Origin: Spizellomyces punctatus DAOM BR117
Lineage: Eukaryota; Chytridiomycota; Chytridiomycetes; Spizellomycetales; Spizellomycetaceae
Assembly: GCF_000182565.1 (NCBI RefSeq)
Contig: NW_015971541.1
Coordinates: forward strand, 124,001 to 188,000
DNA length: 64,000 bases
Direction of reading: 5' to 3'
The notes below the pieces were generated by a model. It saw only the letters and a list, made by a program, of their open reading frames with translations. It was not told where the DNA came from and ran no database searches. Positions within the stretch are counted from its first letter, which is position 1. Each line of letters starts with the position of its first letter. Position numbers and translations under genes: made by a program. Below are positions 58,743 through 59,732 of this stretch, piece by piece.

Positions 58743-59732
<990 letters not shown>

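Follow-up and report, generated by a model that had tools for sequence, protein, structure and literature searches.

The window analysed here is the whole of a 64,000-nucleotide stretch of a contig of Spizellomyces punctatus DAOM BR117 (C5 in the contig coordinates below), and its plus strand carries at 58743-59732 the gene of the cytosolic ribosomal protein uS7 (RPS5), divided into six coding exons. The joined protein has 203 amino acids, is assigned to the Pfam family Ribosomal_S7 by a Pfam scan and matches eukaryotic uS7 in its N-terminal part; a search of the 24.0-Mb assembly with the 92-amino-acid uS7 core returned one match at E 0.001. Exon 1 (58743-58808) encodes 22 residues and ends in phase 0 after Asn-Lys, at the donor GTGTGT. 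It is followed by an intron of 65 nt (58809-58873) with a branch-like TGCTGAA, whose A lies at 58852, and the acceptor TCTAG. Exon 2 consists of the five nucleotides TGGAG (58874-58878), i.e., a Trp codon and the first two bases of a Ser codon. Intron 2 (58879-58955, 77 nt) has the donor GTATGA, a branch-like AACTGAC with its A at 58932 and a weak acceptor, CACAG. Exon 3 (58956-58992, 37 nt) opens with the third base of the Ser codon and adds 12 residues. Exon 4 (59108-59191) and exon 6 (59589-59732), which ends in a TAA stop, were recognized both by reading the sequence and by a gene finder, and exon 5 (59249-59524) by the gene finder. An alternative donor, GTGTAA (58811-58816), would allow an in-frame skip of exon 2 with an implied intron of 145 nt.

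A preliminary description of this DNA had reported the micro-exon and its TCTAG and GTATGA flanks at these coordinates, with exon 1 ending in phase 0 after Asn-Lys (58808) and the next conserved exon beginning with a single Ser base (58956); direct reading of the sequence confirms all of this. TGGAG is an internal coding exon of at most 15 nt between AG and GT (TCTAG/TGGAG/GTATGA), its flanking introns of 65 and 77 nt have ordinary signals and lengths apart from one weak acceptor, and it is needed for residues conserved in homologues. Two other arrangements were considered and rejected. In a stwintron, one intron interrupts the splice signal of another and no exon lies between them (a definition taken in part from PMC6616335), whereas here five nucleotides must stay for Trp-Ser. 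A recursive splice site is a zero-length exon with juxtaposed AG and GT, whereas five bases separate the AG and GT of uS7. Two minor features of the gene may be recorded. Five tandem CATC units lie 5′ of the start codon (window 58583-58602). In addition, the start of intron 2, GTATGAA (58879-58885), resembles that of exon 3, CTACGAA (58956-58962), in five of seven bases, and TGGAGGTATGAA, read through into intron 2, would give WRYE beside the real WSYE; this likeness may be due to chance or may go back to intron gain by duplication.

To see whether TGGAG is needed, all paths that lead from the start codon to exon 3 in frame and without a stop were enumerated, allowing one or two introns with GT (not GC) donors, AG acceptors and a minimum length of 40 nt. 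Four of the 71 paths encode WSYEGVE and all four contain TGGAG at 58874-58878; the canonical path is the sole one of them that also keeps the upstream Asn-Lys (YNK). Skipping exon 2 between the canonical sites (58808 to 58956) gives NKLRRC and then a stop, within exon 3. Three other joins are in frame, from 58810 to 58956 (NK-V-YEGVE), from 58798 to 58956 (EILL-YEGVE) and from 58808 to 59108, i.e., from exon 1 to exon 4 (NK-DYLMV), and all three drop conserved residues. The earlier claim that TGGAG alone supplies Trp-Ser thus holds among the 71 GT-AG paths tested, and the word "obligatory" is justified for these two residues, yet not for the open frame, which the three alternative joins also preserve. 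Such an exon seldom arises by chance: when the interior of the 147-nt sequence between exons 1 and 3 was dinucleotide-shuffled 20,000 times, a 5-nt exon for Trp-Ser or Trp-Thr between AG and GT, flanked on both sides by 45 nt or more, turned up in 32 shuffles, and in a single one its donor equalled the real one.

Splice signals were scored with a small gene finder, which was trained on 264 kb of the contig and took long open frames, together with fungal splice patterns set by hand, as its starting point, with strict training introns, a realistic intron cost and neither external gene models nor a model of uS7; this run yielded 54 genes and 306 introns. Against 191 clean reference introns, from which those of uS7 were excluded, the exon 1 donor stands at the 80th percentile, the acceptor and donor of the microexon at the 71st and 61st, and the weak exon 3 acceptor at the 8th; combined scores place intron 1 at the 91st percentile and intron 2 at the 16th. 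The cryptic donors of the joins 58810-58956 and 58798-58956 are weaker than those of any of the 191 reference introns. The form with the microexon obtained a model score of 37.1, the direct join of exons 1 and 4 obtained 34.3 and the two cryptic-donor joins 22.6 and 22.4. When the finder was trained on C5:1-120000 and C5:190001-320000, which excludes the uS7 window, it predicted the exact six-exon gene at its default intron penalty of -5 and also at -4, kept the microexon at -3 with extra exons added upstream, and gave no uS7 model that passed the filters at penalties from -6 to -10. Trained on the full set, it predicted the microexon at -5 and -6, and the skip from exon 1 to exon 4 at -7, -8 and -10. 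The prediction of the microexon is good, yet sensitive to the settings of the gene finder.

Homologues were compared in a set of 120 listed uS7 entries among 6,162 found. The Trp occurs in its expected context in 108 of the 120, and NKWSYEGVE aligns ungapped, with Trp-Ser or Trp-Thr, in all five PDB alignments examined of 121 matches; the conservation of Trp-Ser in eukaryotic uS7, stated in the preliminary description, is thereby upheld. The 12 remaining entries are a truncated dinoflagellate model (P0002) and 11 chytrid gene models: six from Spizellomycetales (P0003, P0007, P0012, P0013, P0037 and P0046), one from Rhizophlyctidales (P0039), three from Rhizophydiales (P0018, P0029 and P0032) and one from Chytridiales in the NCBI taxonomy (P0105). 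Orders were looked up for Geranomyces, Fimicolochytrium, Borealophlyctis, Polyrhizophydium and P. planicorne, and the remaining chytrid genera are assigned to their presumed orders. Models are therefore altered at the microexon site in 11 of 36 chytrid entries versus 1 of 84 others in the listed set. The 36 chytrid-grade entries were sorted by name, with Neocallimastigomycetes and Monoblepharidomycetes counted in, and the 84 others include unnamed metagenome proteins. These are counts of entries, not of species, as G. variabilis contributes two altered models, and B. salamandrivorans has an intact one (P0008) beside two altered ones. No alteration is seen in the remaining 25 chytrid entries, with NKWSY or NQWSY in Powellomyces (P. 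hirtus, P0004), Gaertneriomyces (P0005) and Batrachochytrium (P0008 and P0009), among others. No S. punctatus uS7 entry was seen among the 120 listed of the 6,162 homologues, where clustering at 90% identity could hide one.

Among the altered models, those of Powellomyces hirtus (P0037), Borealophlyctis nickersoniae (P0039) and Gaertneriomyces sp. JEL0708 (P0046) lack precisely those 14 residues that exons 2 and 3 encode, which is the error made by our own gene finder at stricter settings; since a slightly stiffer intron cost produces the identical error, these three models are explained as annotation artefacts. In Polyrhizophydium (P0018) and B. salamandrivorans (P0032), Val directly precedes Tyr, as would result from the use of a donor two bases downstream if their exon 3 also opens with one Ser base. 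P0003 keeps the Trp, but an extra Val precedes it. Together, these protein models suggest that both intron positions, and hence the microexon, are common to several chytrid orders. With 11 of the 36 listed chytrid models altered at this site, alignments based on ribosomal proteins are affected, and the case serves as a warning for annotation. Searches at the DNA level for uS7 of relatives recovered one locus in viral contigs (72% identity) and six in genome contigs (40-76%), all below the 79-92% identity of the chytrid protein models. Two of the uS7-encoding contigs (L023 and L024), filed under Pararhizobium haloflavum and a Verrucomicrobiaceae MAG, have 76% and 66% identity to the eukaryotic query and are probably eukaryotic contamination. 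The P. hirtus model P0037 has 303 amino acids and combines the uS7 domain with PF03297, which we take to be eS25; it is probably a fused gene model.

We regard TGGAG (58874-58878) as almost certainly a genuine, constitutively included 5-nt exon of uS7, set between two ordinary GT-AG introns (65 and 77 nt), and we infer from the genomic sequence that it is present in the mature mRNA. Introns of the contig are short and uniform (median 66 nt in 241 clean introns, 223 of them at 50-90 nt), so that the recognition of each as a unit would not depend on how long the intervening exon is. Intron definition is the usual expectation for fungi with short introns. The preliminary description had concluded that it must dominate in this lineage; the short, uniform introns agree with this, but the claim adds little, and intron definition is insufficient to account for an exon of 5 nt because two spliceosomes can hardly sit on it together. 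For the same reason, introns 1 and 2 would probably be removed one after the other, an argument against simultaneous spliceosomes on a tiny exon that has been made for plants (PMC8831610). Judged from the site scores, the stronger intron 1 would probably be spliced first, although this expectation is weak because the plant order is the opposite, the upstream intron being more often the detained one (PMC8831610). Once intron 1 is removed, TGGAG would form the 3′ end of an exon of normal size, with the donor GAG/GTATGA intact. A skip between the canonical sites would shift the frame, and the transcript, stopped in exon 3, would probably be degraded. RNA-seq of S. punctatus is cited under SRR343043 (PMC6142364).

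One variant would add to constitutive inclusion rather than replace it, namely that the microexon acts as a regulated switch, in which skipping of the exon or retention of intron 2 leads to a premature stop, decay and feedback on uS7 dosage. The early stop after canonical skipping and the weak acceptor of intron 2 would suit such a role, and microexons of human RPS24 are regulated (PMC12686416), but skipping scored below inclusion and we consider the switch improbable. Even less probable, in our opinion, is that the main or a substantial uS7 mRNA skips exons 2 and 3 (58808 to 59108) and yields an in-frame protein lacking 14 residues. This exact join is annotated in P0037, P0039 and P0046, its 299-nt intron stands at the 50th percentile, the whole model is just 2.8 log units worse and it wins at intron penalties of -7, -8 and -10 with the full training set; however, the join deletes a stretch recognizable in 108 of the 120 listed homologues, including the second P. 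hirtus model (P0004), and its occurrence in the three relatives reads as the artefact described above, which a stiffer intron cost reproduces. A skip from a cryptic donor, at 58810 or 58798, to 58956, which would put Val in place of Trp-Ser or remove five residues around it, keeps the frame and in its first form would give the V-Y annotated in P0018 and P0032, but deserves the least credit of all, as both donors lie below all 191 references, the introns would measure 145 and 157 nt and these paths fall some 14.5 log units behind.

uS7 is a core ribosomal protein, both essential and abundant, and failure to include the 5-nt exon would therefore be costly. Its gene offers a natural reporter for the accuracy of splicing of a 5-nt exon in a fungus with short introns.

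Constitutive inclusion of a very small exon has precedents. Constitutive microexons of 1-15 nt in plants are likewise tiny, internal and coding, are often missed or misannotated, and their flanking introns are likely removed consecutively, as proposed here for uS7; they rest on RNA-seq from 10 species, whereas the uS7 exon comes from a chytrid with introns of fungal length and is argued from the DNA (PMC8831610). In fungi, CYP621A of Fusarium has a single-nucleotide exon that was likewise deduced from phase and a conserved motif and is flanked by canonical AG and GT, although it measures 1 nt instead of 5, belongs to a rarely expressed P450 rather than to a housekeeping gene and was confirmed by reads (PMC12940212). 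P450 genes of Phanerochaete chrysosporium contain microexons of 2-10 amino acids, the shortest of 6 bp, which like that of uS7 are small fungal exons among short introns; these are genes of a basidiomycete, and their microexons were proposed to promote alternative splicing (PMC1184071). A functional microexon has also been described in Trichoderma (PMC11121469). Human RPS24, which also encodes a protein of the small ribosomal subunit, has microexons of 3, 18 and 22 bp, but these are alternative, C-terminal and repressed by PTBP1, whereas the residues encoded by TGGAG are conserved and lie close to the N terminus (PMC12686416). The 4-bp microexon of human MPC1 is similarly described as constitutive and is not a multiple of three, although it was studied with minigenes, in another gene and intron context (PMC9929638). 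No published report of this uS7 microexon or of a microexon survey in chytrids was found among the titles and abstract openings listed, with subscription journals and supplements outside the search. Constitutive microexons and their misannotation being already in print, along with a 1-nt fungal exon and the P450 and RPS24 microexons, the uS7 exon is a new case of a known phenomenon.

The genome tolerates very small exons, and that of uS7 is one example among several. Run over 314 kb, the gene finder predicted 69 genes with 365 introns; 11 of the 303 internal exons measure at most 15 nt, which is about half of the 20.6 expected if the same introns are placed at random (95% range 13-29). Homology supports six of these 11: the 5-nt exon of uS7, another of 5 nt in an HDAC6-like gene, three of 9, 11 and 11 nt in a SNF2/Rad5-like gene and one of 14 nt in an HtrA-like gene. 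Five were left uncounted as supported, namely one of 8 nt in a low-complexity stretch, two of 9 and 15 nt where the HDAC gene encodes its C-terminal part, and two of 4 and 15 nt in an alpha/beta hydrolase and a CCCH protein, for which a Pfam scan alone does not settle the exon.

The SNF2/Rad5-like gene (L021, minus strand) contains consecutive exons of 9 and 11 nt (C5:268629-268637 and 268557-268567), which split the Walker A motif GGILADDMGLGKT, and a further exon of 11 nt (C5:267230-267240) within RLRQACNH. The model with these three exons is 100% identical over 571 amino acids to the deposited model SPPG_03151. Of 120 SNF2 entries, the first 24 were aligned, among them that of S. punctatus, and 19 of these show the motif unchanged; in P0132 the region is missing, P0136, P0138 and P0141 have one D fewer and P0133 reads GGMLCDDMGLGKT. 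In the HDAC6-like deacetylase (L009), the 5-nt exon GCATT (C5:73815-73819, minus strand) is needed for HHAEATKALGFC. Its combination with the downstream acceptor chosen by the gene finder was rejected, as it drops residues conserved in HDAC6. An acceptor 18 nt upstream gives a 69-nt intron and restores ALGFCIYSNVAVAAR, matching AMGFCIYNNVAVAAK of Powellomyces (P0241), and scores lower (4.5 versus 6.9; 34th percentile of 67 introns). The HtrA-like protease, also on the minus strand, has its 14-nt exon at window 4417-4430, in RDPVHDFGVLK, followed by one of 17 nt (window 4029-4045).

These SNF2, HDAC and HtrA-like genes suggest that tiny exons are an issue throughout the genome. Apart from uS7, the five supported exons in 314 kb correspond to some 380 in 24 Mb (Poisson range roughly 120-900), a crude estimate drawn from a single contig. 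Supported tiny exons occur in 3 of 68 genes without uS7, too few for a significant difference from the 0.92-2.59% of genes with microexons that four rows of a table in PMC8831610 give for three land plants and Chlamydomonas. Among eight other ribosomal protein loci, none of the 13 internal exons modelled was of 15 nt or less; these loci were found with human sequences, opposite-strand models were left out and the models of uL14 and uS12b are imperfect. Tentatively, with a confidence falling slightly short of balanced, we propose that the uS7 microexon predates the split of Spizellomycetales, Rhizophlyctidales and Rhizophydiales and is the tip of a chytrid landscape, in which S. punctatus would have several hundred constitutive exons of at most 15 nt, in a larger share of genes than land plants or Chlamydomonas, many of them within core motifs and many misannotated in public proteomes. 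If true, a chytrid genome rich in microexons would provide a simple fungal system to study how the spliceosome handles introns 5 nt apart.

Two further observations were made during the survey. A zero-length, recursive-like exon with juxtaposed AG and GT, splitting a 115-nt intron into 61 and 54 nt near C5 259700 (minus strand), in a gene that we take to be DNA2-like, appeared in one training run and was set aside, as it disappeared in the larger one. Finally, an exon of 26 nt is predicted at window 60267-60292, in the gene downstream of uS7, which presumably resembles COG4.
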